Below are positions 2,986 through 32,890 of a stretch of DNA of 64,000 bases, piece after piece (positions within the stretch are counted from its first letter, which is position 1; every line of letters begins with the position of its first letter). The position numbers and the translations under genes were made by a program. A model generated the notes under the pieces. The model did no database searches. It saw nothing but the letters and a program-made list of their open reading frames with translations, and had not been told where the DNA came from. The DNA comes from Dactylorhiza incarnata. Lineage: Eukaryota; Streptophyta; Magnoliopsida; Asparagales; Orchidaceae. Location of the stretch: NCBI GenBank assembly GCA_033032865.1, contig JAWHQI010000099.1:4267501-4331500 (forward strand), written 5' to 3'.

Positions 2986-4882
2986 ATAAATAAATGTTTA
3001 TGCAATTTCTGTCACTTATTTTGCTGTACCTAGATCTAATTATTAAAAATACTTAGGCCCCTCTACAGAAAACGTGGTCAACACCAAAGTTGTATCCCTT
3101 AGGGTCTACTTTATTTTAAAATTGATTTCTCCCGAAAAGGAGTTATGTATCTCCCTATAGAACCAAAATTGTGGGACTGGTCCCTAGTGTAGGACAGCCA
3201 CCATTCCTTGAATATTTTTTACTGGTAGTAGATATGGCCTTGATACTTTAAACCTAGGCTAGCTAAATACACACACACAACATACAAGAAGATGGGATTT
3301 TTAGAAGAACCTTTTTCTAAGGTTTCTGAAATAATTCCATAAATCATCTAATAATTAATTAGTGGGCTAAATGACCTCCATTGCCCTCCAAATTTGGTGG
3401 GTGCTCCTTAGGGTTACTGTATGGCCTTAGTAAAATTATCAGCCCAATTGAGACTGTTTTGTTTGAGTTTTTGTAAACCCAAGTTAGGACAAATAGGGTC
3501 AAAGTTAGGGTATGGTGTTTACCTTGGGGTATGGTGGTCAAAACTCATCACCATGAAGTGAAACCTTGGTAACTGGTTTAGGATCACCTAAGACACCTCC
3601 ATGAGTGATATGGGGTGGTGTGGAGGTGGTTAAGCCCTAGATCACAAGTTCTATTCCTAGGTGTGCATTTAGGACCTTGTGAAGGCCATGTGGTCAAAAT
3701 TCCCTTGATGGTTATGAAACTTGGTGGATAGATTCATAGGGTGTAAATAGGCACTGGGTAATTTTATAAGAATTTTAGGAGTCAATATTCCCTTTGAATT
3801 AGGACATAACTCATTTAGGGAAACTTCATATAAGAAACATTTACATGCTTAAAATGTCTTGGATGATGATGAAACTTTGGTGCTGCCCTTATAATCATGG
3901 TTTAGAACTCTGGTAATTTTTGTGGATTTTATTAAATAATTTAATCAGTACTTCTTTCACAAGGCACCTGTTTTGATTTAGACTTAAGGAAAATATTTTG
4001 TCCAATACTATTTTATAAATTGTGCAAATTAGTTATAGGACATTTCAGAACATTATAAAGCTCTATGAATTTTTATAGAATTTTTGAAGACTTAAATCAG
4101 TAGGCTACTTCACAATTCATTTAATTTGAGGTTTTCTTAAAGTATTTATTTTAGTGAGAAAATTATTTCCTTAAATCCTGAAACTTAGTCAGTAGCCTTT
4201 TCTGGTGAATACAAGAGTTTGGTAATTTTCCCATAATTTTAGTGTTGATCTTTTTGGTGGTTCCTTCATAAAACTACTATTTTGGATAGGTGATAAATAA
4301 TTAAATTAGAGGACAATTTCTTACTGTAAAAATATTATATGCTGTTTCTGCTGTTATTTGATCATCATAGATTTATCATAATTTTCAGAGAGCCATATCA
4401 TAAGATTTACTTACAATTCATGTTCATTTTCATACTTGGCAAATGTTTGGAGAAATTAAAATAAATATTAATTAATTAGGGAAAAATATGATTCTCTGGA
4501 ATTAGTCTTTTAACATCATGATAGACCTCCAGTAAATAGCTTGAGTCGGTTGGATGATTATTTGGAGTACCTCTAGTTGTAAGCTTCATATAATTAGTTT
4601 GGTCTACGTATAGTAAGACTGTGAAACTTAGATTTTTAGTGGCCTACAAGGTGGAAATGGTGTGCAGATGGTGCACATGGGTTGATCGGATGGTTGGAAG
4701 TTCACCCCAGGAAGTGTATGTGAGGAAAGTGTACTTGGTGTGTTAAGAGTAAGGTTGTCCTGGGGATTGACGAAGGATCGTCTTTCCCTGGTGTGTCTTA
4801 AAGCACTTAGGTCTAATTCAAGTGAAACGGTAGAAGGGAATTCTTAATGGTAGATACCAATAACAGTAAGTGTCTTGAGAAA

Positions 4883-4968
4883 GGGAACTTTGGGGTGTCA
4901 TCCCATTATAGTTCCTAGTACCGTAGCGAGCCCCTTACAGGGTAACCATCGGGAAGTCCAAGATTAAC
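4883..4968 (+). other. ~85-bp block shared with the tRNA-Asp element ASP-1
   Basis: The string running from GTCATCCCAT through GTTCCTAGTACC to GGGAAGTCCAAGA also occurs at 14751-14837, just downstream of the ASP-1 PBS. The copies agree over about 85 bp with scattered differences, while the host elements are otherwise unrelated. No tRNA-type A or B boxes are visible and the function is unknown. Confidence 0.75.
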
Positions 4969-12919: not shown

Positions 12920-14605
12920 TGATAAATAGTATTTTGACCTACTTTTAGTGGGGTATTTATTTTAATATTAATATAAATTTGTAAATAATATGTAGATTTT
13001 ACTTAAATAATCATTTGATTTATAATTATTTACTAATTTCAGGTTATTTTCTATTTTGCAGGATATTTGGAGCTTTTGGCTAAAATTGCAAGTACACGCC
13101 CTCAGTTACGCCCGTGACCAAGGGCGTGGCAACATAAAGACTCATTCCAGCTCACTACCGGGATTCTAAAGCTGAAAATGTGAAGAAATACAAGTCACGC
13201 CCTCGGTCACGCCCGTGATCGAGGCCGTGTAAGATGACATGGCCTTGGCTAGTCAAATTCCAACTCAACCAAACAAATCACCCAGTATACGCCCGTGTTA
13301 GTCAAGTCATGCCCGTGACTTTCACTTGTCATGCCCGTGTAACCTCCAGCCGATCCCACGGATCCTCCAACAGTCACTCCCCTGACCCAACCAAGTAGAC
13401 GCCCGTGATCACCAGAAGTAATGCCTGTGTAGCTTCTCTGTTGCCAGATCATGCCTCTGTCCCTCCAGAATTCCCCTCCAGCTGCACTTTAATTAATACA
13501 CTCCCTGGGTCACGGGCGTGACCTAGGGCATGACGCGCACATAACGCCAGCAATGACTCCATAAGGCGCCCTCTCTGCACCATCTTCGATCATGCCCCTT
13601 ACACTCCCTTGGTCACTGGCGTGACCGAGGGCGTGTAACCTCAACCTTTTGCCTATTTAAAGATAGCTCCTCCAGATCTCAAATCATCCAATTTTCCACC
13701 CCTCTTGGGCCAAAACTACTTCCCTCTGCCCCCTCTTGGGGCAGAAATGCTTTTCTTTCTTCTTTTATTTTCTTATTTCTTTTAGCTTAGATTTTGATTC
13801 CATGTAATTTTAATTTTATGCAATGTAGTCTTAGATTTCATTTCATGCAAGGCTTTCAAATTCTTGTACTCCTTTCCTTTATGCAATTCAATTTTCTCTT
13901 AATAAAATGTTTTTTCAATTCCTTTCATCTTTGTATTTTCATGTCCATTAATATTTAGTCTTGGTCATTGCAACCGATGAATGAAATTATCTATCCTTAT
14001 TGTCTCTCTCTTCTTCCTTCGATTTATTCTTGAATAATAATGTATCGAGTTCATATACCGCTTGTGAATTTCGATAGTTGTTTTCGCATTCTAGTTAGCC
14101 GAGAGGCTCGTGCGTGTGAATCAATTACTCAAGAATAAAAAGAGTTGATCGCAACCCTCGAGAGAGGATGACGGAAATCTTCTGGATTGGAGTCAAGTTC
14201 TATAGCGGGATTCACCTCAATAAAGCGAGTATTAGGTTATCGATTATAGAATGAGAATTCAGTTGATATTCCTAATCTTAGTTGGGCGTAGTCCTCGAGA
14301 GAGGTACATTCATAATTCGGGAATCTCCACGGTCAAGGATCGGATCAGAAGCATATAAGTCAATTCTTTCTATTTCACTCGAAGTTTGCTTTGCTCAAGT
14401 TTAGATTTCTTTTCTTTAATTTAGTTTAGTTATAAAATTTCTTCTATGTATTATTTGATAAAATAATAGTTTGTTTTTCCGAAGTAAAAGTACTCGACAG
14501 ACCCGTGGATTTATTCGATCTTGATATTTTCATATCCTATGCTATGAACGATGGGTACGCTTGCCTAGTCCGTTTATCATTTAATAATTTAATTTTTATG
14601 TATCA
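12920..14605 (+). repeat. ASP-1 5' LTR
   Basis: It is 1,686 bp from TGATAAATAGTATTTTGAC to ATGTATCA. From 13090 to 13640 it holds about 15 variants of CACGCCCGTGAC. GGTCACG and CGTGACC arms around two G/C bases form an inverted repeat. A TATTTAAA box lies at about 13653. Confidence 0.9.
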
Positions 14606-16161
14606 TGTTTTTGGCGCCGTTGCCGTAGACTTTTAATCGATATTTCAAAAAAGGGAAACACTATTAATTTTATATTTCTTTTTTCTTTACTTTTTTCCCT
14701 TTATATATATATAAATGAAAAAAATTTATGCTATAATTAAATTCTTGAAAAGGAAGCTTTGGGCTTGTCATCCCATCGTAGTTCCTAGTACCTTGCGACC
14801 CCTTCACCGGGTAGACCTTGGGAAGTCCAAGACTAATTAAAACATATAAAAAAATCTCTCTTTTTATTTTATTTTACACAAAAAATATAAACTTATAAAA
14901 CAACCAATTTTTTTTTTCTTTTTGTTTTATTTGTTTTGTGTTTTGTTATTTAATTTTTATACAGGTATTCGTGTTGGTCTCACCGTCTTCAAATCAGAGA
15001 CGTGCTATTCTTCCTCTCTTTGTTCATGTTTTTCTTGTTTTTCTTCTTTTTTTACTTCGTGCTTAGTTTTCAACATTGGGAAAATGTTGAATTTTAAGTA
15101 TGTGGGTGTATTTCCTAATCTTTAAATTTTTTTTTCAAAAACTTAAAAAAATTTAATATATATATATGTATATATATATAATAATAATAAAGTAAACCCT
15201 TACTTTTGTTTTTGTTATTTCCAAAATCAAATATTTGAGAGTTTATTTATAAGCATTTTTACTATTTTTAATTTCCTAATCTTTTATTTTATCATGGTTA
15301 GTAAAATATAATTTTTAGGTGATTTAGTTTTAAGGAATATATTGTGATCTTAATTTGATTAGAGTAATTTATTTAGCACTTTTTCTCTTTTATTTTAATT
15401 AGTCTCAATTTTGTAGCAATTGTGCCTAACACCTTGAAATTTAATTATTTCTACCCCATGCTTTTAGATTCTTAGGAAATTATAATTTACTATAGTTGCT
15501 CTCAAAATGTTTTAATTTAGAATTTATTTTAGCCCTTTACCCTTTAGCCTTACCCAAAAAAGAACAAAAGAATTATTAAGAGATCATATGCCATGGAAAT
15601 AAGAGGATAAAATTTATTATTTCCTAAACATATGCCCCCTCTCAATGAAGAATATTTAAAAAAGATTATATGTCATTGAAAATGAGAGGATAAAATTCAT
15701 CATTTTCCTAAACATATACAAATAGAAAAGAAAAAAGATGGGGTGAGAGGATAAAATTCATCACCTCCAATCAAAGCAATCTTCATGATTACCCAAAACC
15801 CTTGGCCAATATAAATGATTTTATACTTAAATTAAAATATTAGGAGAGCATAATTAGTAGTTTGAAAGTTTCCGTAAGCGTCTTTAAAGTTGGAGTATTC
15901 TTATAATTTTAATCTAATTTTGTTCGCAAATTACTCAACTTTGTCAACTAGTTAATCTATTTGAGAATTTTTAGCTAAATATTTCTCTCTTTTCAAACTA
16001 TTCTCATAATTTAGGACTTATCTCTTAAATCCCTAAATTTTAATTTTGGCTTTCTTTTGATTTAAATGAAATTTTAGTTTAATTAAAAATCTTATAAATG
16101 TCTTATGAATATTTCTCATATTTTTGCTCTGGAATAGGAAAAGCTTAAGTATGTGGGTACT
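14606..16161 (+). other. ASP-1 interior: PBS, shared block, hairpin cluster, PPT
   Basis: TGGCGCCGTTGCCG at 14612-14625 is complementary to the 3' end of tRNA-Asp including CCA. The block shared with the GYP1 LTR follows at 14751-14837. A 67-codon ORF at 14922-15125 is low-complexity and not credible. Three hairpins lie at 15585-15634, 15667-15718 and 15740-15767. The PPT is AAGTATGTGGGTAC just before 16162. The remainder is AT-rich sequence. Confidence 0.75.
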
Positions 16162-17849
16162 TGATAAATAGTATTTTGACATACTTTTAGTGGGGTATTT
16201 ATTTTAATATTAATATAAATTTGTAAATAATATGTGTATTTTACTTAAATATTCATTTAATTTATAATTATTTACTAATTTCCGATTATTTTCTGTTTTG
16301 CAGGAGTTTTGGAGCTTTTAGCTAAAATTGCAAGTACACGCCCTCAGTCACGCCCGTGACCAAAGGCGTGTCAACATAAAGACTCGTTCCAGCTCACTGC
16401 CGTGATTCTAAAGCAGAAAACATGAAGAAATGCAAGTCACGCCCTCGGTCACGCCCGTGACCGAGGCCGTGTAAGATGACATGGCCATGAATAGTCAAAT
16501 TCCAGCTCATCCAGACAAATCACCCAGTACACGCCCGTGTTAGTTAAGTCACGCCCGTGACTTTCACTTGTCACGCTCGTGTAACCTCCAGCCGATCTCG
16601 CAGCTCCTCCAGCAGTCACGCCCCTGACCCAGCCAAGTACATGCCCGTGACCTCCAGAAGCCATGCCCGTGTAGCTTCTCTGCTGCCAGATCATGCCTCT
16701 GTCCCGCCAAAATTTCCCACCAGCTGCACTTTAATGAATACATGCCCTAGGTTACAGGCGTGACCTAGGCGTGGCGCGCACGTAATGCCAGCAATAACTC
16801 CATAAGGCACCCTCTCTGCACCAGCTTCGATCACGCCCCTTACACGCCCTTGGTCACGGGTGTGACTGAGGGTGTGTAACCTCAACTTTTCGCCGATTTA
16901 AAGACAGCTCCTCTAGATCTCAAATCATCCAATTTTCCACCCCTCTAGGGCCAAAACTCCTTCCCTCTGCCCCTCTTGGGGCAGAAATGTTTTTCTTTCT
17001 TCATGTATTTTATTATTTCTTTTTAGCTTAGATTTTGATTCCATGTAATTTTAATTTTATGCAATGTAGTCTTAGATTTCATTTCATGCAAGGCTTTCAA
17101 ATTCTTGTACTCTTTTCCTTTATGTAATTCAATTTTCTCTTAATAAAATGCTTTTTCAATTCCTTTAATCTTTGTATTTTCTTGTCAATTAATATTTAGT
17201 CTTGGTCTTTGCAACTGATGAATGAAATTATTTTTCTCTTTATTGTCTCTCTCTTATTTCTTCGATTTATTATTGAATAATAACGTATCGAGTTGATACA
17301 CGGGTTGTGAATTTCGATATTTATTTTCACATTCTAGTTAGCTGAGAGGCTCGTGCGTACAAATCAATCGCTCAAGAATAAAAAGAGTTGATCACAACCC
17401 TCGAGAGAGGATGACGAAAATCTTCTAGATAGGAGTCAAGTCCTATAGCAAGAGTCACCTCATTAAAGCGAGTATTAGGTTATTAATTATAGAATGAGAA
17501 TTCGGTTGATATTCCTAATCTTAGTTGGGCGTAGTCCTCGAGAGAGGTACATTCATAATTCGGGAATCTCCACGGTCAAGGATCAGATTAGAAGCATATA
17601 AGTCAATTCTTTCTATTTCACTCGAAGTTTGCTTTATTCAAGTTTAGATTTCTTTTCTTTAATTTAGTTTATTTATAAAATTTCTCCTAAAGTATTATTT
17701 GATAAAATAATAGTTTGTTTTCCCAAAGTAAAAGTACTCGACAGACCCATGGATTTATACGACCTTGATATTTTCATATCATATGCTATGAACGATATGT
17801 ACGCTTGCTTAGTACATTTATAATTTAATAATTTAATTTTTACATATCA
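16162..17849 (+). repeat. ASP-1 3' LTR
   Basis: It is 1,688 bp and aligns along its length with 12920-14605, with scattered substitutions that make it clearly older than ASP-2. The CACGCCCGTGAC array is at 16335-16885. Confidence 0.9.
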
Positions 17850-18219
17850 GTTTCCTTATCAAAAGACTCAGTGGTTTTGAGAGTATCCTTATCAAAAGAC
17901 TCAGTGGTTCTGAGAGTCTCCTTATCAAAAGACTTAGACACAGTTAGTGCAATCCTACTAGGGAGGTAGAAGAGTGGACTACCCATATTTTGGGGAACCA
18001 CTATAAAAATCTTGTGTCTTCTGGATTTATTTACTGTGCTGTCCCAGTTTTCTGTTTTCTGTATTTATATTTTCTGCATTTACTTTATTCTGTTTTGGTA
18101 GTGTTGATTGCATATTACTTAGTAGTTTTATTGGGTGTGCACATTTAGGGTATAAAATATTTAAAACTCTATTCACCCCTCTCTTGACAATACTTAGAGG
18201 CACAGTATGCACTTTTATT

Positions 18220-23336: not shown

Positions 23337-24208
23337 TGATACGTTTTTTGATTAGTTTGTTTCTCTCTTTTCTTTGTTAGAAAGAGAGAAAGAAAAGGAA
23401 AAGCTCTTTCTTCCTTTTCGATTCAACCTTGGGCGGACGTTTTCGAAGAGCCCCGCGAGTAATCCTACTTCGAGGAATTATCCGTTATCCTATCGAAGGA
23501 TAGAAGTAACGAACTCTTTCTCTTTCGAAATATCGAGGATTCCTCCTCGGCCGCGTCCTTTGAAGGCTGAATGAAAAGAATGAAAGGGGGCTTCTTTTTA
23601 TGTAAAATTAAGATTGAAAGCTTTTGAAAATATTGTTGCAACAATTTTTTGAGTAGTTGCAACAATTCTTTAAGAGCGCTTTAAAACTTCTTTTACCTTG
23701 AGCTAGTTGCAACAACCAAAGATGTTGCAACTATTTTTTAAGTGTTTTTAAAAGAGTTTTAAAGAGTGCTTTAGAGAGAAAGCTTTTGGGTTTATGTAAT
23801 TATCCGGACTAAAATCAATAAAGGCAAGTGGACCTTATCGATAGTAGTTTAGGATATTTCTTTTGAAATATCAAGGTCGTATTTTTCCAAGGTCGTATCG
23901 ATTATTTCTACTTTTTAGGAACGCGCTATTATTTTATCGAGAAAAGTTTGAAATTGATTTTTATGATTTTATAGAAAAGTTAGTGACGAAAATGATAACT
24001 ATCGCGGGCTTGGTGTGCGTTTAGCAAAAACCAAGAAAAGCGATGAAAAGAAAAAGAACGAAAACGTTAATTTAAAAAGTAGTTTTGCGGGTAGCGGATT
24101 TAAGCAACAAGCAAATATATATAAAAAAATTAAAAGACGCACTAATTGAAAACTCACGCACTCTACGGAATTAAAATGAAAGCTGTAAATTGCAGAAATT
24201 GAAGAAAT

Positions 24209-24418
24209 GCGATCCCTACCCAAATAGGTAGAGGGGAAATAAATGCGTGAGCAAGTCCTATCCAAACGGATAGGCGGGAAATAAATGCGTGAGCAAGTCC
24301 TATCCAAACGGATAGGCGGGAAATAAATGCGTGAGCAAGTCCTATCCAAACGGATAGGCGGGAAATAAATGCGTGAGCAAGTCCTATCCAAACGGATAGG
24401 CGGGAAATAAATGCGTGA
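24209..24418 (-). repeat. 42-bp tandem hairpin repeat, 4 exact units plus 1 diverged
   Basis: Units at 24251, 24293, 24335 and 24377 are identical, each with CCTATCC-AAAC-GGATAGG, a 7-bp stem. The diverged unit at 24209-24250 has CTACC and GGTAG arms, so both sides changed together. The other LTR has the same array at 29337-29546. Confidence 0.9.
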
Positions 24419-24446
24419 CGGAAATGGAAACTATTCGATTACAAAA

Positions 24447-24905
24447 AAGGCGCAAACTTTATACTCATACACACACCCACTCTACGTTAATGAAATCTAA
24501 TTAAAATAAAACAAAAGTTAACTCATACACTCACACACACAACATAAAATGAAGCTAAGTTAAAAAGAAAAACAAATCTATTCTCATACACTCACACACA
24601 CTAACAACAAAATGAAAATAAAATAAGAACAATTTACTCTCATACACACACACACACTTACAAAAAGAGAGAAAGAAAGTAAAAACACCAAATCAAAACA
24701 AAACAAAACAACAAAAAAAACTAATTAACCTCCTACACTCACACACACTAACATAAAACCATCTAAAAATTACAACAAAGCTAAAAATATGAAAATTACA
24801 CTCATACACACACACACCCAAATTAAAATGACAAACTAACAAAAATTACAAAGATTACAAAAACTAAAAAAAAAAGAAAGGAAGATAAACACACACACAC
24901 TTTCA
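24447..24905. repeat. CA-rich quasi-periodic stretch in the ASP-2 LTR
   Basis: Strings such as CTCATACACACACACAC recur roughly every 50-70 bp, separated by A-rich spacers. The second LTR has the same at 29575-30033. It is simple sequence. Confidence 0.7.
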
Positions 24906-25109
24906 CAAGAACAAGGAGAGAGTTACAAAAAAAGCAAATTTAATTTTATTATCATCATAAAAAGGGTTACAAAGCTAGAGAGAGTGCACAAAATTACAAA
25001 AATTACAAAACACCAAAAATCAGCAAAATGGAACAAAACCTTAAGAGAAGCTCCCAAAATTTTGAACCCTTGGACTCAGCTGAAACTGGCTATTTATAGA
25101 AAAAAATTT

Positions 25110-25590
25110 TGGATTACACGCCCTCGGACACGGGCGTGTCTGAGGGCGTGACACGGCTTGGGGTGCGAATAGCCAGAACAGCTGGATCCAGGCAGGCATC
25201 TGGAAGGCTTGACCGGCGACTTCGGAAGTACACGGGCGTGTTCCAAGTAACACGGGCGTGTTCGATGTCGGCATTGTGTTGTCGGCTGCTGGGCGTGACG
25301 GGCGGCGTGTCCTTTGTTCTTCCGAAAGAAATTGAGGGGTCACGGCCTCGGTCACGGGCGTGACCCGATCACGGCCGTGACAGTGGGCGTGACATTGACA
25401 TCTTGGCTTGAATCTGGGCTTGGTCATTCAACACGGGCGTGACTGATGTACACGGCCTCGGTCACGGGCGTGACCGAGGGCGTGACTTGATGTTTGAGTT
25501 GGAAAAAGAACAGGGAAAAGAAAATGTTAGGGATTAGTGAACACGCCCTTGGACACGGGCGTGACCAAGGGCGTGACTTAACAAAATTAC
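25110..25590. repeat. GGTCACGGGCGTGACC word array, ASP-2 LTR
   Basis: About 15 ACGGGCGTG or GGGCGTGAC variants occur. The best (25456-25479) has CCTCGGTCACG, GG, then the exact reverse complement of the first arm. The second LTR copy is at 30238-30720. ASP-1 carries the same word although most of its LTR no longer aligns. Confidence 0.85.
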
Positions 25591-25742
25591 AAAAACTTTA
25601 CAAAAATTAAAATAAAACTAAGTTAAAAACAAAAATAACAAAAACAAACATTTTATTCATTAATTTACATATATTATTTAGAAATCTAATTAAAATTATA
25701 CTAAAAATTATAAAGAAAAATGCGTATATTTACTATTCATCA

Positions 25743-28207
25743 AACACCCCCATACTCAAGCTTTTGCTATTCCAGAGCAAAAGTAAGGGATACCTATAAG
25801 ACGTTTAATAAAATTTCTAATTTACTAAAGTTTTTATTAAATCAAAAGTAAGATCGAAATAAATTTAGGGTATTTAAAGAGGTAAGTCCAAAACTATGAA
25901 AGTAATTTAAAAAGAGCGAAAAAATTTTAGCGAGACTTCTAAAGTTAGCTAAATAGCATCGATTATTGCAGTCTTTGGTACCTTTTAATTAGAATAGAAT
26001 TATATAAAACTATAACCTTTTTTAAGAAAGTTTTTAAGAATAAATAAAGCCTACTAATTATGCTCTCTCAAACTTTTTTTAAATTAAAATCTAGGTACAA
26101 TTTTATTGGCTAAGGGGTAGGGAAAAAAGGTAGCCTTGGCAAAAAGAAGAGTGCTTGGATATAGGGGTGACGGATTTTATCCTCTCACCCCACCTTTTTG
26201 GTGGTTTTGCTTTGGTTCCCAGCGTTGGTTTACGCGGGATAATTGAAATCTTTTCTAAACTTAACCCAATGCCCGTGTTTACGGAATTAAATTCCCATTG
26301 ACACGGGATTTCTTTTAACAATATTGGGTGCCTGTATTTACGGAATCTTTTTATTCCCATTGACACAGGATTTCTTTTAAAACTCCTTTTACTTTTTTAT
26401 GCCAAGCTAAAGGGGTGTTTATAAGGGGGGGTTTCAAGAGAAATTCTAGATTAATAAAGAAAGATTTTGAGAGCAAGTTTAATAGATTAAAAACATTCCT
26501 AAAGTTTCACAAGTTTAGAGTTAGAATAATTGAATCTAAAGATGGTTTGCCAATATAATACAAAAATGAATCTATTTAGGGTAAACCCGAGGTAATGCTA
26601 AAAGTTCTGTTCTCAAATTAAATTAAGATCGCAAGATTTTCTTTACTACTGAAAATTCCTCGATTTAAATTTTTCAAACTATGAAATAAATAAAATTGAT
26701 TTAGCAAATCATAAATAATGAAAAGCGCTTAGAGATAAAACTAACCTCGCCTTGGGAATAACAAAAAGCTAAGTAGGGGTTTTATTTTATTTTTGGGTTT
26801 TTTGATAAGTTTTTCAAATTTATTTTTTTTTTGTTTTTAAGATATGATATTTTTTTTTTTTGGATTTTTGATTTTCTTTATAACAAAATGCATATATAAA
26901 TACAAAATATTTTTGATTTTTCTAAGATTTTTTTTATTTTATTTTTTTTTTGTTAAAAATATGTACATATAAAAAAAAGGAAAAAAGGAAAGAAAGAAAA
27001 GAACATAAATATTTTGGTGTTATGACAAAATTAATTTTGTTATAACAAATTTTTAAGTACTTTTTTTTTCATCATTTTTTTTTATTTTGATTTATAACAA
27101 AAAAAAAAACATAAGTAAATACATATATATTTACATTAATACTAAAAAAGGAAAAACATAAATATAAAAAGACATAAATATAAAAAGACATCATTTTTTT
27201 TTTTTGAATTTTGATTTTATAAATAATGTTTATTTATATACAAATAAAGACATAAATATAAAACATGTAAAATTTTTTTTGATTTTTCATTTGATAAGGG
27301 AGGGGCAAAAATAATTACAAAAAAGAGGGAAAACACGCCCCCATACTTAAAACCAACATTGTCCTCAATGTTGAAGGTAAGTGTGAGGAACGAAAATATT
27401 TACAAAAAAAAAACGAAGATTTTAATTACAAGAAAGAAAAAAAAAATACAAGAATAAAAAAAAGGGACTCCATGAATATATACAAAATTGTTTTTTGGTT
27501 TGTTTTAGTTTTTCGAAATGTACAAAACACGAATAAAATACGTATAAAGGAAGTTAAAAAAAACATATATTTTTTGGTATGATAAAAATAAATTTTTATC
27601 ATCTTTTTATGTTATTATTTATATTATATGTATTTTTTTTTTTTTGGTTTTAATTTTAAAATATGCATGTTTTAAAATATATCTAAATTCTAAGAAAGAT
27701 AAAATAAAGTAAAATAAAGAAAAGGCTTTAAGATAAAAACCAAGGAAGAAAGAAGAGAAATAAAAAGGTAAAAGCAACGGGGTTTTCTCGTTTCGAAATA
27801 TCGACAAAAATCCCCTCTCGGGTCTGTCGAGTAATCCTACTTTGAGAAACTTCCTATTGTCTTATTTTTAAAATTCTCAAAATTCTTTTTGATTTTTGTT
27901 TTAAAGTTTTTTTTTTTTGCATTATTTTATTTTGTTTTATGTTTCTTTTTTAAAAAGGAATGATAATTTAAAATATGCATAATTATTAATATTATTTTTT
28001 TTTTCATTTTTAATTTATTATTATTATTTATTATTATTATTTTTGTTTAAGTTTTTATTTTTTGAAATGAAAATTTATTTCATCTTTTTTTTTTGTTTCA
28101 AGTAAATAAATAAAAAAAAGAGCGTAATTGGATAATTATGGGGGTGCCTCCCACGAGCGCTTTGTTTACCGTCTCGTAGCTTGACGCGTTGGCGGGGTAC
28201 GATCTTT
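25743..28207 (-). other. ASP-2 3' noncoding interior with hairpin cluster and PPT
   Basis: On the minus strand, pol's stop is followed by about 2.4 kb without coding sequence. The PPT (GAGTATGGGGGTGTT) abuts the 3' LTR. Four hairpins lie at 26331-26369, 26272-26307, 26218-26239 and 26164-26191. An AACATTGTCCTCAATGTT inverted repeat at about 27355-27372 resembles one in ASP-1 at about 15071. The 26780-28130 part is dominated by A/T runs with nothing else recognised. Confidence 0.7.
26164..26369 (-). other. ASP-2 hairpin cluster
   Basis: Read on the minus strand, two hairpins have outer stems CTGTGT/ATACAG and CCGTGT/ACACGG, inner stems GGAAT/ATTCC, and the same internal-loop strands (CAATG and GTAA). 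A third is TCCCGCG/CGC-GGGA with a bulge. The fourth is GGGGTGA, a GAGGATAAAAT loop, then TCACCCC, matching the last hairpin of ASP-1 at 15740-15767. Confidence 0.75.
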
Positions 28208-28387
28208 TTAGAGGTGGGGGAGGGGTATGGAATTTAACTTCCCTCCCAGTTGATCCCCCGCGTGGTAGAGTTTTAGTCGGTGACCGTTAACTTTTAAGTC
28301 GCCTTTTTCCGGGTGGGTGATAAGGACGGTCCCGTATGGCCAAACCTCTTTCACTTGAAAGGGGCCGGACCAACGGGATTTTAGTCG
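28208..28387 (-). pseudogene. ASP-2 pol C-terminal remnant
   Basis: About 59 codons remain: RLKSRWSGPFQVKEVWPYG, then LITHPEKGDLKVNGHRLK and YHAGDQ, to TAA at 28210-28208. This is the post-integrase tail found in gypsy elements of the Athila/Tat group (SRWSGPF, FKVNGxRLK). It is open and in one frame, but starts inside the protein: its first codon overlaps the first bases of the tRNA copy (GTCG, 28384-28387). It cannot be functional alone. Confidence 0.9.
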
Positions 28388-28455
28388 TTGTAGTATAGTG
28401 GTGAGTATTCCCGCCTGTCACGCGGGTGACCCGGGTTCGATCCCCGGCAACGGCG
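28384..28455 (+). tRNA. tRNA-Asp (GTC), full length, embedded at the ASP-2 PBS
   Basis: The 72-nt sequence folds as a complete cloverleaf: acceptor stem GTCGTTG/CAACGGC, anticodon GTC at 28417-28419, A box TAGTATAGTGG (28391-28401), B box GGTTCGATCC (28434-28443) and discriminator G. It is followed directly by CCA (28456-28458), which plant nuclear tRNA genes do not encode. Its 3' 18 nt plus CCA are the element's primer-binding site. The LTR adds a T6 run 14 nt further on. I infer a copy of the primer tRNA rather than a host gene. Whether RNA polymerase III transcribes it is unknown. Confidence 0.95.
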
Positions 28456-28464
28456 CCAAAAACT

Positions 28465-30870
28465 TGATACGTTTTTTGATTAGTTTGTTTCTCTCTTTTC
28501 TTTGTTAGAAAGAGAGAAAGAAAAGGAAAAGCTCTTTCTTCCTTTTCGATTCAACCTTGGGCGGACGTTTTCGAAGAGCCCCGCGAGTAATCCTACTTCG
28601 AGGAATTATCCGTTATCCTATCGAAGGATAGAAGTAACGAACTCTTTCTCTTTCGAAATATCGAGGATTCCTCCTCGGCCGCGTCCTTTGAAGGCTGAAT
28701 GAAAAGAATGAAAGGGGGCTTCTTTTTATGTAAAATTAAGATTGAAAGCTTTTGAAAATATTGTTGCAACAATTTTTTGAGTAGTTGCAACAATTCTTTA
28801 AGAGCGCTTTAAAACTTCTTTTACCTTGAGCTAGTTGCAACAACCAAAGATGTTGCAACTATTTTTTAAGTGTTTTTAAAAGAGTTTTAAAGAGTGCTTT
28901 AGAGAGAAAGCTTTTGGGTTTATGTAATTATCCGGACTAAAATCAATAAAGGCAAGTGGACCTTATCGATAGTAGTTTAGGATATTTCTTTTGAAATATC
29001 AAGGTCGTATTTTTCCAAGGTCGTATCGATTATTTCTACTTTTTAGGAACGCGCTATTATTTTATCGAGAAAAGTTTGAAATTGATTTTTATGATTTTAT
29101 AGAAAAGTTAGTGACGAAAACGATAACTATCGCGGGCTTGGTGTGCGTTTAGCAAAAACCAAGAAAAGCGATGAAAAGAAAAAGAACGAAAACGTTAATT
29201 TAAAAAGTAGTTTTGCGGGTAGCGGATTTAAGCAACAAGCAAATATATATAAAAAAATTAAAAGACGCACTAATTGAAAACTCACGCACTCTACGGAATT
29301 AAAATGAAAGCTGTAAATTGCAGAAATTGAAGAAATGCGATCCCTACCCAAATAGGTAGAGGGGAAATAAATGCGTGAGCAAGTCCTATCCAAACGGATA
29401 GGCGGGAAATAAATGCGTGAGCAAGTCCTATCCAAACGGATAGGCGGGAAATAAATGCGTGAGCAAGTCCTATCCAAACGGATAGGCGGGAAATAAATGC
29501 GTGAGCAAGTCCTATCCAAACGGATAGGCGGGAAATAAATGCGTGACGGAAATGGAAACTATTCGATTACAAAAAAGGCGCAAACTTTATACTCATACAC
29601 ACACCCACTCTACGTTAATGAAATCTAATTAAAATAAAACAAAAGTTAACTCATACACTCACACACACAACATAAAATGAAGCTAAGTTAAAAAGAAAAA
29701 CAAATCTATTCTCATACACTCACACACACTAACAACAAAATGAAAATAAAATAAGAACAATTTACTCTCATACACACACACACACTTACAAAAAGAGAGA
29801 AAGAAAGTAAAAACACCAAATCAAAACAAAACAAAACAACAAAAAAAACTAATTAACCTCCTACACTCACACACACTAACATAAAACCATCTAAAAATTA
29901 CAACAAAGCTAAAAATATGAAAATTACACTCATACACACACACACCCAAATTAAAATGACAAACTAACAAAAATTACAAAGATTACAAAAACTAAAAAAA
30001 AAAGAAAGGAAGATAAACACACACACACTTTCACAAGAACAAGGAGAGAGTTACAAAAAAAGCAAATTTAATTTTATTATCATCATAAAAAGGGTTACAA
30101 AGCTAGAGAGAGTGCACAAAATTACAAAAATTACAAAACACCAAAAATCAGCAAAATGGAACAAAACCTTAAGAGAAGCTCCCAAAATTTTGAACCCTTG
30201 GACTCAGCTGAAACTGGCTATTTATAGAAAAAATTTTTGGATTACACGCCCTCGGACACGGGCGTGTCTGAGGGCGTGACACGGCTTGGGGTGCGAATAG
30301 CCAGAACAGCTGGATCCAGGCAGGCATCTGGAAGGCTTGACCGACGACTTCGGAAGTACACGGGCGTGTTCCAAGTAACACGGGCGTGTTCGATGTCGGC
30401 ATTGTGTTGTCGGCTGCTGGGCGTGACGGGCGGCGTGTCCTTTGTTCTTCCGAAAGAAATTGAGGGGTCACGGCCTCGGTCACGGGCGTGACCCGATCAC
30501 GACCGTGATAGTGGGCGTGACATTGACATCTTGGCTCGAATCTGGGCTTGGTCATTCAACACGGGCGTGACTGATGTACACGGCCTCGGTCACGGGCGTG
30601 ACCGAGGGCGTGACTTGATGTTTGAGTTGGAAAAAGAACAGGGAAAAGAAAATGTTAGGGATTAGTGAACACGCCCTTGGACACGGGCGTGACCAAGGGC
30701 GTGACTTAACAAAATTACAAAAACTTTACAAAAATTAAAATAAAACTAAGTTAAAAACAAAAATAACAAAAACAAACATTTTATTCATTAATTTACATAT
30801 ATTATTTAGAAATCTAATTAAAATTATACTAAAAATTATAAAGAAAAATGCGTATATTTACTATTCATCA
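28465..30870 (-). repeat. ASP-2 5' LTR
   Basis: It has the same length (2,406 bp) as the other LTR and differs at about six positions, for example 29121 and within 30230-30540. Five bases (AAAAC plus a few) separate it from the tRNA CCA. Confidence 0.95.
28472..28477 (+). terminator. Possible Pol III terminator (T6) supplied by the LTR
   Basis: Six T residues lie 14 nt after the tRNA CCA, a suitable distance for a Pol III stop on the tRNA-sense strand. It may be coincidental LTR sequence: the same T6 exists in the other LTR copy. Confidence 0.4.
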
Positions 30871-32890
30871 AATGCACTCTTCAAATCCATCTGATAGACT
30901 TTAATCCTCATGTGAGCTGCATATGCAAGGAACATTCAGATGGCCTCCATCCTTGCTACTAGAGCAAATGTCTGGTTGAAGTCAATCCCCTCATGTTTCC
31001 TGTATCCTTGGGCCACAAGTCTAGCTTATTCCAGATTATGACTCCTGTTGAATCCATTTTGTTTTTGAATACCCATTTGGTACCAATGACTAGGTAATTC
31101 TTTGGTCTTTCAACCAATGTCCAGACCTTGTTCCTCTCAAACTATGTTAGCTCTTCTTGCATTGCAGATATCCAGTGAGGATCACTGTCTGCTTCTTCAA
31201 ACCTTTTAGGTTCATTTTGAGAGAGGAAACACTGCAACATTGTTTCATTTGTGAGCTGATTCCTTGTTTTCACTCCAACTATCAAATCTCATATAACTTG
31301 TGTTGAAGGATGATCCTTTAAGGTCATCCTGGATCTTGTTGAGTTATTAAGGAGATTTTCTTCTTCCTGAAGAGCCACTTGCTCAGTGACAGTGGGAGCA
31401 CCATCTTCATTCACTAGAATGATCTTAGTGGCCGGTAGTTCATGTGCTATAATTTCCTCTTCATCTGCTGCAGAATATTCATTTGAATCAGTGTCAACTG
31501 TTTGTTTTCCTTTATCTTGACATATTGATGGATGATCCATGATGCTGACTCTTTCAACCTGATCTGTTAGCTGGTCTTCTTCCTGCAGAACAGTGCTTGT
31601 GGAAGTTTCCTTCCCCTTATAAAACATGTTAGTTTCATCAAAGACCGCATACATAGACTCCTCAATAATGACCGAGCTTTTATTATAGCACCTATTGGCC
31701 TTGCTTGATGAGGAATATCCCAAAAATATCCCATCATCAGCCTTCTTGTCAAATTTGGCAAGATGATTTTTGCCATTGTTAAGGATAAAGCAGGTACAAC
31801 CAAAGATCCTAAAGTAAGTGACTGTAGGTGTCTTTCCCTTCAATAACTCATTGGGAGTCTTCAACTTTGTCTTGTGAATGAGACTTCTATTCAGAACATA
31901 GTTGGCAGTATTCACTGCCTCAACCCAAAAGGACTTTGGCAAGTTGGATTCAACCAACAATGTCCTTCCTGATTCAATTAGGGTTCAATTTTTCCTTTCA
32001 GCCACCCCATTTTGTTGGGGGGTTTTAGGAGCTGAAAAGCTTTGTCTTATCCCTTCATCCTCACAGAATCTACATATTAATTGATTTTCAAACTCAGTAC
32101 CATGATCACTTCTGATCACAGCAACCTGAGGGTTGAATTCAGATTGAATCTGTCTAATGAATCTTGAGAGGATCTTGAAGGTGTCTGACTTAGCTTTTAG
32201 AAATAACAACCAGCTGAATCTAGAAAAATCATCTACAATGACTAGAGTGTAGGACTTACCTGCTAAGCTCTGAGTGGAGATAGGACCAAATAGGTCCATG
32301 TGCAACAGGAATAGGATTCTAGGGGAATCATTCTTACCAATTGGTTTGAATGATGATTTGATCTGCTTTCCTAGTTGGCAGGCTCTACAGGGATGGTCTT
32401 TATTGAACTTACCTGTTGGTAAGCCTCTTACGAGGTTAAGCTTAGATTGTTTGGCAAGGGTCTTAAAGTTTAGGTGACTAAGTTTCCTATGTCATAACTC
32501 AATATTTTCAAACTGGGAATTAAACAAGCAGATCTATGATTTTGTATACTCAAATTCTACAACATAGACCTTACCTTTCCTAAGACAAGTCAATACTATT
32601 TGGTTAGTTATAGAACTAACTATATGACACAAAGACTTAGTGAATACAACTTTGTATTCGCCATCACAGAGCTGACTAATATAAATTAGATTATGTTGGA
32701 GACCTTCAACATAAGCAACCTTAGAAAAAGAGACTTCCCCAATCCTAAGCAGACCATACCCTTTGGTTTGACTAGAGTCAGAATTCTCAAAGATTACCTT
32801 AGGCCGTTCCTTGGCCTTGTAATTTTCCAGCAGTTCTTTTGCTCCAGTCATATGCATGGAGCATCCACTGTCCAGATACCACTACTAGTT
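30871..32890 (-). pseudogene. COP-B protease, integrase and RT N-part
   Basis: From high to low coordinates: protease active site WYLDSGCSMHMTG (about 32855-32890), GAG-pre-integrase region to 32534, integrase D-D-E core with MHMDLFGP, IRSDHGTEFEN and PQQNGVAERKN (31985-32305), integrase C-part (FGCTCFILNN, FLGYS, YKGKET; 31289-31960), then RT N-terminus (NKVWTLVERP, TKWVFKNKMD, YQMDLKSAF) cut by ASP-2 at 30870. The key catalytic residues are still visible, but the frame closes at 32534, 31985 and 31289 and at several RT codons. Confidence 0.9.

Follow-up and report, generated by a model that had tools for sequence, protein, structure and literature searches.

Covarying tandem hairpins outline a candidate cis-acting RNA domain in a tRNA-Asp-primed gypsy family of Dactylorhiza incarnata

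Background

Cis-acting RNA structures that steer genomic RNA have been well studied in retroviruses and in yeast Ty elements. The known CTE, RTE and MTE elements are placed towards the 3' end of the genome, between the coding region and the 3' LTR, and packaging signals typically include tandem hairpins with conserved unpaired purine-rich loops. The cis elements of genomic RNA include the MPMV CTE, the IAP RTE, the MusD MTE and the RSV direct repeats, several of which are multi-stem. The cited portions of the literature describe cis RNA export elements in simple retroviruses, IAP and MusD, as well as long-range interactions in the MTE (PMC12786077, PMC3856414, PMC11379458). In its position, the domain described here, a putative cis element as well, agrees with these elements, forming a structured segment of the 3' noncoding portion of genomic RNA. 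It differs from them in its plant host and in having no Rfam match. The packaging and dimerisation signals of Ty1, Ty3 and retroviruses are likewise structured cis RNAs of LTR elements; however, the Ty1 packaging region is placed at the 5' end in the cited part of its description (PMC4974528), whereas the present domain is situated after pol, ahead of the 3' LTR.

With its tRNA-Asp primer, LTRs longer than 1.5 kb and RT-RNase H-integrase order, the family resembles Athila, Calypso and Diaspora, and its lineage is probably Athila/Calypso-like, judged by primer and layout. According to the cited sections, the primer binding site (PBS) lies 5 bp from the LTR in Calypso and Diaspora, compared with 6 nt here, and no such RNA domain is mentioned in that part of the Diaspora description (PMC1142308). 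Unlike these elements, the coding relative found here (L141) has no frame of at least 120 codons, and hence no env-like frame, in the 2 kb after pol. In Retand, too, the region from pol to the 3' LTR carries repeated units, described as tandem repeats in the cited excerpt (PMC11963269). In contrast, the repeats here are structured RNA units with covarying stems, and the lineage differs by primer and layout.

Results and discussion

Two LTR elements and the layout of their hairpins

The analyzed DNA, referred to as the window, is a 64-kb stretch (C3183:4267501-4331500) of the 3.27-Gb genome. It contains nested LTR elements, two of which, ASP-1 and ASP-2, bear hairpin clusters and share a tRNA-Asp primer site (Table 1). 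The identity of its LTRs indicates that ASP-2 is young. The longest interior frames reach at most 67 codons in ASP-1 and at most 87 codons in ASP-2; a decayed gene over the ASP-2 hairpins is unsupported, as the 87-codon frame there has no homologue. For the pol remnant of ASP-2, all 20 protein candidates matched at E<=0.01 (best 9.5e-17), those with names being Tanacetum RT-domain or hypothetical proteins, and a Pfam search with this short remnant gave no match.

Table 1. Coordinates and composition of the features in the window
Feature	Position	Strand	Description
ASP-1 element	12920..17853	+	LTRs ~1.69 kb (91.2% identical); no long frames in the interior
ASP-1 primer binding site, tRNA-Asp	14612..14625	+	
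Whole ASP-1 RNA domain	15478..15868	+	consensus fold with ASP-2
ASP-1 closing long-range helix, 5' arm	15497..15503	+	TGCTCTC; pair probability 0.96-1.0
ASP-1 hairpin 1	15585..15634	+	outer stem CATATG/CATATG, 4x4 internal loop CCAT/TAAA
ASP-1 hairpin 1, upper part			inner stem GGAAATAA/TTATTTCC, loop GAGGATAAAATTTA
ASP-1 hairpin 2	15667..15718	+	outer stem TATATGT/ACATATA, internal loop CATT/CTAA
ASP-1 hairpin 2, upper part			inner stem GAAAATGA/TCATTTTC, loop GAGGATAAAATTCA
ASP-1 hairpin 3	15740..15767	+	apical unit without outer stem: GGGGTGA - GA GGAT AAA ATTC A - TCACCTC
ASP-1 closing helix, 3' arm	15844-15850	+	GAGAGCA; within 17-mer GAGAGCATAATTAGTAG (15844..15860)
Predicted unpaired parts of the domain			CAWU/NUAA internal loops and GAGGAUAAAAU loop
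ASP-2 element	23337..30872	-	LTRs 2,408 bp, 99.75% identical
ASP-2 hairpin 3	26164..26191	-	apical unit GGGGTGA - GA GGAT AAA ATCC G - TCACCCC
ASP-2 closing helix, 3' arm	26061..26067	-	GAGAGCA
ASP-2 hairpin B	26272..26307	-	CCCGTGT/ACACGGG, CAATG/GTAA, GGAAT/ATTCC
ASP-2 hairpin A	26331..26369	-	CCTGTGT/ATACAGG, CAATG/GTAA, GGAAT/ATTCC
ASP-2 closing helix, 5' arm	26469..26475	-	TGCTCTC
ASP-2 remnant, C-terminal end of gypsy-type pol	28208..28384	-	58 codons, then stop
ASP-2 primer binding site, extended	28384..28458	-	complement of whole 75-nt tRNA-Asp(GTC), CCA included
TCACGCCCGTGA repeat regions	13106-13624, 16348-16865, 25352-25564, 30480-30692		in the LTRs of both elements

The hairpin sequences and coordinates given for both elements in an earlier note on this DNA were reproduced, and the hairpins form a related family in noncoding sequence that precedes the PPT, as had been proposed. 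Taken as 7 bp, the outer stem of ASP-1 hairpin 1 contains one C.A mismatch, and that of ASP-2 hairpin A contains one G-U. The apical loops of ASP-2 hairpins A and B measure 6 and 3 nt. The third hairpin had been said to carry the same loop in both elements; the loops are indeed similar, with a possible small GGAU-AAA-AUYY stem, but not identical (GAGGATAAAATTCA and GAGGATAAAATCCG). The arms of the closing helix TGCTCTC/GAGAGCA lie ~340-400 nt apart and pair with probabilities of 0.96-1.0 in both elements; being identical in ASP-1 and ASP-2, they speak for conservation and not for covariation. A second TGCTCT adjoins the PPT in each element (16125-16130 on the plus strand, 25779-25774 on the minus strand) and is a possible alternative partner for the 3' arm, as seen in one alignment; this would allow the RNA to switch between two folds. 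After ASP-2 hairpins A and B follows, at similar spacing, a degenerate third basal stem (ATCCCGCGT...ACGCTGGGA; 26217-26240, minus strand), scored weakly by the ASP-2-only model R3 (E 3.9), which suggests that the hairpin array grew by tandem duplication.

Folding and covariation within the window

Single-sequence folds gave z-scores of -3.15 for ASP-1 and -4.91 for ASP-2, with none of 200 shuffles as low in either element. The four double-stem hairpins (ASP-1 1 and 2, ASP-2 A and B) were aligned with MAFFT by sequence only, and 27 of the 28 outer-stem cells proved to be standard pairs. The claim that both arms changed together in every pair stands for four of the seven outer pairs; the others comprise an invariant pair, a pair with a one-sided change and a pair with a broken cell. 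None of 500 shuffles reached the covariation score, which upholds the earlier suggestion of selection on RNA shape. For two of the five measures the contrast was smaller: the number of double-changed pairs was reached by 26 and the number of pair types by 419 of 500 shuffles. When the partner was slid by 1-3 columns (six registers), pairing fell to 8-64%, and the covariation score was below that of the true register in all of them. The RNAalifold consensus of the four hairpins has 7 bp in the outer stem and 4 bp in the inner stem, separated by a 4x4 internal loop, and an energy of -9.95 (shuffled mean -0.25; 0 of 500 shuffles as low). The apical units of ASP-1 hairpins 1, 2 and 3 and ASP-2 hairpin 3 also share a fold, the loop of which contains the small GGAU-AAA-AUYY stem (0 of 500 shuffles). 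Under a tree-aware null with a freely mutating 3' arm, the outer stem was matched in 11 (uniform) and 282 (transition-biased) of 2,000,000 cases, to be weighed against the 52 helices of at least 7 bp available for picking in ASP-1.

Double-stem hairpins per se are not rare in the AT-rich DNA studied here: ASP-1 contains six, compared with a shuffled mean of 2.0 (maximum of 40 shuffles, 4), and ASP-2 contains two, compared with 3.55. What distinguishes them is the location and loops they have in common, together with the covariation. The 63 pairs of the domain consensus fold divide into 13 with double-sided change, 8 with one-sided change and 42 unchanged, and none is broken. In 100 column shuffles of the domain, double-changed pairs averaged 4.45 with a maximum of 10, compared with the 13 observed.

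Held-out models and locality of the signal

When the covariance model R2, built from the ASP-1 hairpins only, was run against both strands of the 64 kb, its own two training matches ranked first. They were followed by ASP-2 hairpin B (E 0.0019), ASP-1 hairpin 3 (0.0046), ASP-2 hairpin A (0.0089) and ASP-2 hairpin 3 (0.081), with the following match only at 0.77. Conversely, R3 recovered ASP-1 hairpins 2 (E 0.013) and 1 (E 0.039), and its following match had an E of 0.75. Sequence-only nhmmer profiles from the same alignments did not find the cross-element hairpin pairs in the 64 kb, and the ASP-1 profile detected only the apical loop of the third hairpins. Since structure models succeed where sequence profiles fail, the relation between ASP-1 and ASP-2 is carried by shape more than by letters. 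With two-sided pairing changes and cross-element recovery by structure models both observed, we classify the hairpins as a new RNA motif family.

Compared with the adjoining blocks, the fold signal is local to the domain. Consensus-fold z-scores were 0.40 for the upstream block, -15.3 for the domain and -0.62 for the downstream block, at aligned identities of 0.65, 0.69 and 0.67, respectively; block borders were chosen with the hairpins known, and each block was aligned by sequence alone. None of 100 column shuffles folded as low as the ASP-1/ASP-2 domain consensus, for which two analyses of the same alignment gave z-scores of -11.6 and -15.3. The sense strand of the domain folds better than the antisense strand (-53.0 vs -46.3).

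At the gathering score, Rfam 15 matched only the tRNA in the window and assigned the domain to no family; the weak matches below cut-off in the two interiors (E 1.2-4.3) were dismissed. The plant and fungal ENE, a poly(A)-binding triple helix, has a U-rich internal loop on both strands and was rejected in view of the CAWU/NUAA internal loops found here. H/ACA snoRNA, CTE loops and kissing palindromes were dropped by eye because of unfit loops or sizes.

Copies across the genome

First-look searches of the 3.27-Gb genome yielded 2,529 candidates for the ASP-1 cluster and 2,099 for the ASP-2 cluster. Forty of each were scored, and all matched, at 88-100% and at least 99%, respectively. The 17-mer GAGAGCATAATTAGTAG occurs exactly 1,132 times in the genome and its reversed control not once. 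From its places we took 70 of the first 72 listed, blind to hairpins, on contigs C11-C222 (C188:7355768 and C221:1657630 were omitted). Each of these 70 loci contains at least two matches to R1, a model built from both elements (67 have two, three have three). Another 21 loci, picked by similarity to the ASP-1 hairpins, each contain both hairpins, which gives 88 loci with two and three loci with three matches among all 91. The ASP-2-only model, applied to 20 of these 21 ASP-1-like copies, found at least two matches at E<=1 in each (42 in total).

The alignment of the matches from the 70 loci, A5, was fitted to R1 in a way that favours pairing. It holds 143 matches in 80 distinct rows, with 95.2% of cells paired (90.3% in shuffles) and 57 double-changed cells (14.9 in shuffles). 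Its number of double-changed pairs, one of five measures, was reached by 9 of 500 shuffles and its covariation score by none; with two to three hairpins at each of 91 loci, the expectation of covariation among 20 or more copies is thereby borne out in part. By subfamily affinity, 69 of the 70 loci are nearer to ASP-2 and one is intermediate. Over the pieces that could be aligned, four loci (L085, L115, L126 and L129) share only 70-72% identity with ASP-2 and 72-74% with ASP-1; the third subfamily rests on these four. When majority states were compared for the two hairpins of all three subfamilies, 41 of 42 pairs were standard and four of seven positions double-changed; the sole exception, in the third subfamily, is a G.A where the second hairpin has its pair 7. 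Most of the covariation lies between the three subfamilies, by our estimate 4-6 double changes, and thus comes from few independent events. Among ASP-2-type copies, one outer pair is broken in 21 of 66 cases for the first hairpin and in 9 of 66 for the second; such broken pairs in single copies are the decay expected of dead insertions.

The internal loops are nearly invariant, with mismatch rates of 0.000 and 0.007 over 593 and 594 cells. The spacer between hairpins A and B (0.004) and the stem of the third hairpin (0.008) are equally steady, and stems are not uniformly better kept in letters, as the outer stem of hairpin A (9.6%) shows in comparison with the A-B spacer (0.4%). The wobble asymmetry of the outer stem is weak (17 G-U vs 13 C.A in 41 distinct rows). 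Mismatch rates for the 5' arm and first spacer are unreliable, since 66 of 70 loci have TGCTCTC at 390-425 nt upstream. When a strict pattern was required of single-sequence folds, 4 of the 70 loci had three double-stem hairpins, 40 had two, 19 had one and 7 had none. The 3' arm pairs at p>0.5 with some partner in the first 59 nt in 69 of 70 loci.

Elsewhere, six scans of a viral contig collection found no relative of the hairpins, and a scan of a genome contig collection gave two matches, both in bacterial MAGs, which we estimate to be about the chance level for such a pattern. The motif is nowhere mentioned in the titles and abstract openings covered by our literature search.

A coding relative and the origin of ASP-2

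The hairpins of the neighbouring copy L141 lie 3.8 kb outside the window, and all 216 letters of its hairpin stretch are identical to ASP-2. The two interiors agree at 99.7% over 2,243 nt, a match that begins in the final two bases of the tRNA copy. The L141 pol frame has 1,215 codons with RT, RNase H and integrase in order (a protease match stays under the cut-off) and ends where the 58-codon remnant of ASP-2 ends. A near-identical domain behind this frame places the structure in the 3' noncoding portion of a family that encodes proteins, and the earlier suggestion of an element without proteins that needs a helper's Gag is not supported.

In ASP-2, the 58 pol-end codons stand directly behind the tRNA copy. 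When this junction was used as a query (45 matches; 40 of 2,063 candidates scored), only ASP-2 extended more than 5 nt beyond the tRNA end; the next best match stopped there, with 158 vs 273 bits. Another copy with the same junction should have ranked second, and none did among the scored matches. ASP-2 thus looks like a one-off deletion copy joining a whole tRNA-Asp copy to the pol end. LARDs are LTR elements with a noncoding interior shared by many copies; ASP-2 resembles them in being an LTR element with a noncoding interior, but its junction, unseen in other scored matches, makes it look like a single deletion copy and not a member of an established nonautonomous family.

Ten loci (the L011-L020 set, ASP-2 included) all show an LTR end, a 6-nt spacer and the full 75-nt tRNA complement, which terminates exactly at the tRNA 5' end. 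No two of them are alike throughout in the sequence that follows, and parts of three tails are similar. The tails of L013 and L015 have their first 11 nt in common, repeating the PBS, and L011 and L020 continue in pol. This looks like plus-strand synthesis that copied the whole primer and then transferred to varied internal sites, and such read-through looks like a recurrent route to deletion copies. LTR ends bearing tRNA or PBS sequence were also seen joined without a gap, head to head at C555:8376144-8376302 and C555:8370486-8370644 and in tandem at C2446:2755466-2755582 and C2617:3330899-3331011, which is suggestive of two strong-stop products fused together.

Proposed role and alternative explanations

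The preservation of shape under changing letters suggests that the fold does a job in the life cycle of the element. The hairpins are almost certainly parts of a conserved RNA domain, and we infer that this domain very probably works at the RNA level and in cis on genomic RNA. A role in transport in particular, argued by analogy, is put forward tentatively. We propose a multi-branched domain of ~390-450 nt, located after pol and ahead of the 3' LTR, in a large and recently active gypsy family that is primed by tRNA-Asp and would be Athila/Calypso-like by primer and layout. Beside one hairpin with the apical loop GAGGAUAAAAUYYR, its interior contains two tandem double-stem hairpins whose conserved internal loop reads CAW(U)/(N)UAA. 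The domain would act in cis on the genomic RNA of its own element: the repeated internal loops would serve as protein docking sites, and the closing helix would insulate them from the remaining transcript. The domain would thereby govern the fate or transport of unspliced genomic RNA (export or cytoplasmic routing), like the animal CTE, RTE and MTE. Transport is favoured because simple retroviruses, IAP and MusD carry cis export elements; identical loops in several copies would also lend themselves to cooperative docking. As a whole, a cis RNA domain of a tRNA-Asp-primed gypsy family, with transport slightly preferred over packaging, has in our judgement an even chance of being the right explanation. 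More speculatively, it may be a plant counterpart of retroviral RNA transport elements that recruits a host RNA-binding protein via the CAWU/NUAA loops.

Packaging by Gag comes close behind transport, and the two roles could be combined. The domain would then be a packaging signal, or a packaging and dimerisation signal, for the family's own Gag, with the conserved loops as nucleocapsid sites; we consider this possible but less likely than not. ASP-2 has lost gag and nearly all of pol and yet retains the whole domain, and localisation and packaging of the gypsy element Ty3 depend on UTRs or POL sequences in the cited part of the source, although the same part places the Ty1 packaging region within 580 nt of the 5' end (PMC4974528). 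Moreover, with its junction absent elsewhere among scored matches, ASP-2 gives no evidence of repeated mobilisation, and the apical loops (6 and 3 nt in hairpins A and B) show no consistent palindrome.

Template switching (quasi-palindrome correction) during reverse transcription or replication could maintain pairing with no RNA selection, since it alters both arms jointly and the hairpins are short inverted repeats. It should, however, mend the internal loops too, and these are unpaired and alike (mismatch 0.000 and 0.007); the closing arms lie ~340-400 nt apart, and adjacent AT-rich blocks lack a fold signal, all of which makes this account very improbable. It is a little less likely still that the fold acts on the host side, as a small-RNA source or a DNA cruciform. 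Inverted repeats do feed Dicer-like enzymes in plants, but the stems here are short (7 and 4-8 bp) and interrupted and so do not resemble long perfect duplexes. In addition, folding favours the sense strand, and the only Rfam miRNA match (E 1.2) is on the opposite strand, with a score far below cut-off. The last account, chance pairing in AT-rich DNA combined with common descent, could draw on the frequency of double-stem hairpins here and on related copies that count one inherited change repeatedly; with held-out models, slid and shuffled controls and flank controls all contrary, we regard it as hardly credible.

According to the cited part of a review, export of plant LTR-element RNA has never been studied directly (PMC12786077), so that a transport role has no plant precedent there. 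If the domain does act in transport, a gypsy family of over 1,000 copies would have genomic RNAs that bypass splicing-coupled export or nuclear retention. The domain with its conserved loops, present in 70 of 70 examined loci (of 1,132 places), would offer a concrete bait for a reader protein, and it provides a structural marker for the poorly understood region between pol and the 3' LTR.

Other repeats in and near the elements

A 96-bp stretch of the ASP-1 leader (14743-14836) is 81% identical (E 1.5e-17) to 4873-4967 in a different repeat, with no further copy listed outside the two elements; it is possibly a shared small module. An inverted repeat recognized by eye, CAACATTG...CAATGTTG (CAACATT...AATGTTG in ASP-1), lies at 15070-15109 on the plus strand and 27376-27331 on the minus strand. 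In both elements it directly precedes an internal purine-rich tract resembling a second PPT (TTTAAGTATGGGGG in ASP-2), and three spellings of this repeat type were not found in the literature searched. The LTR start shows a separate consensus-fold signal (z -6.8) that is stronger in antisense (-11.4), and it contains TCACGCCCGTGA repeats. This near-palindrome recurs in the LTRs of both elements in both orientations, with 21 matches at no more than one mismatch, compared with 0.05 expected.
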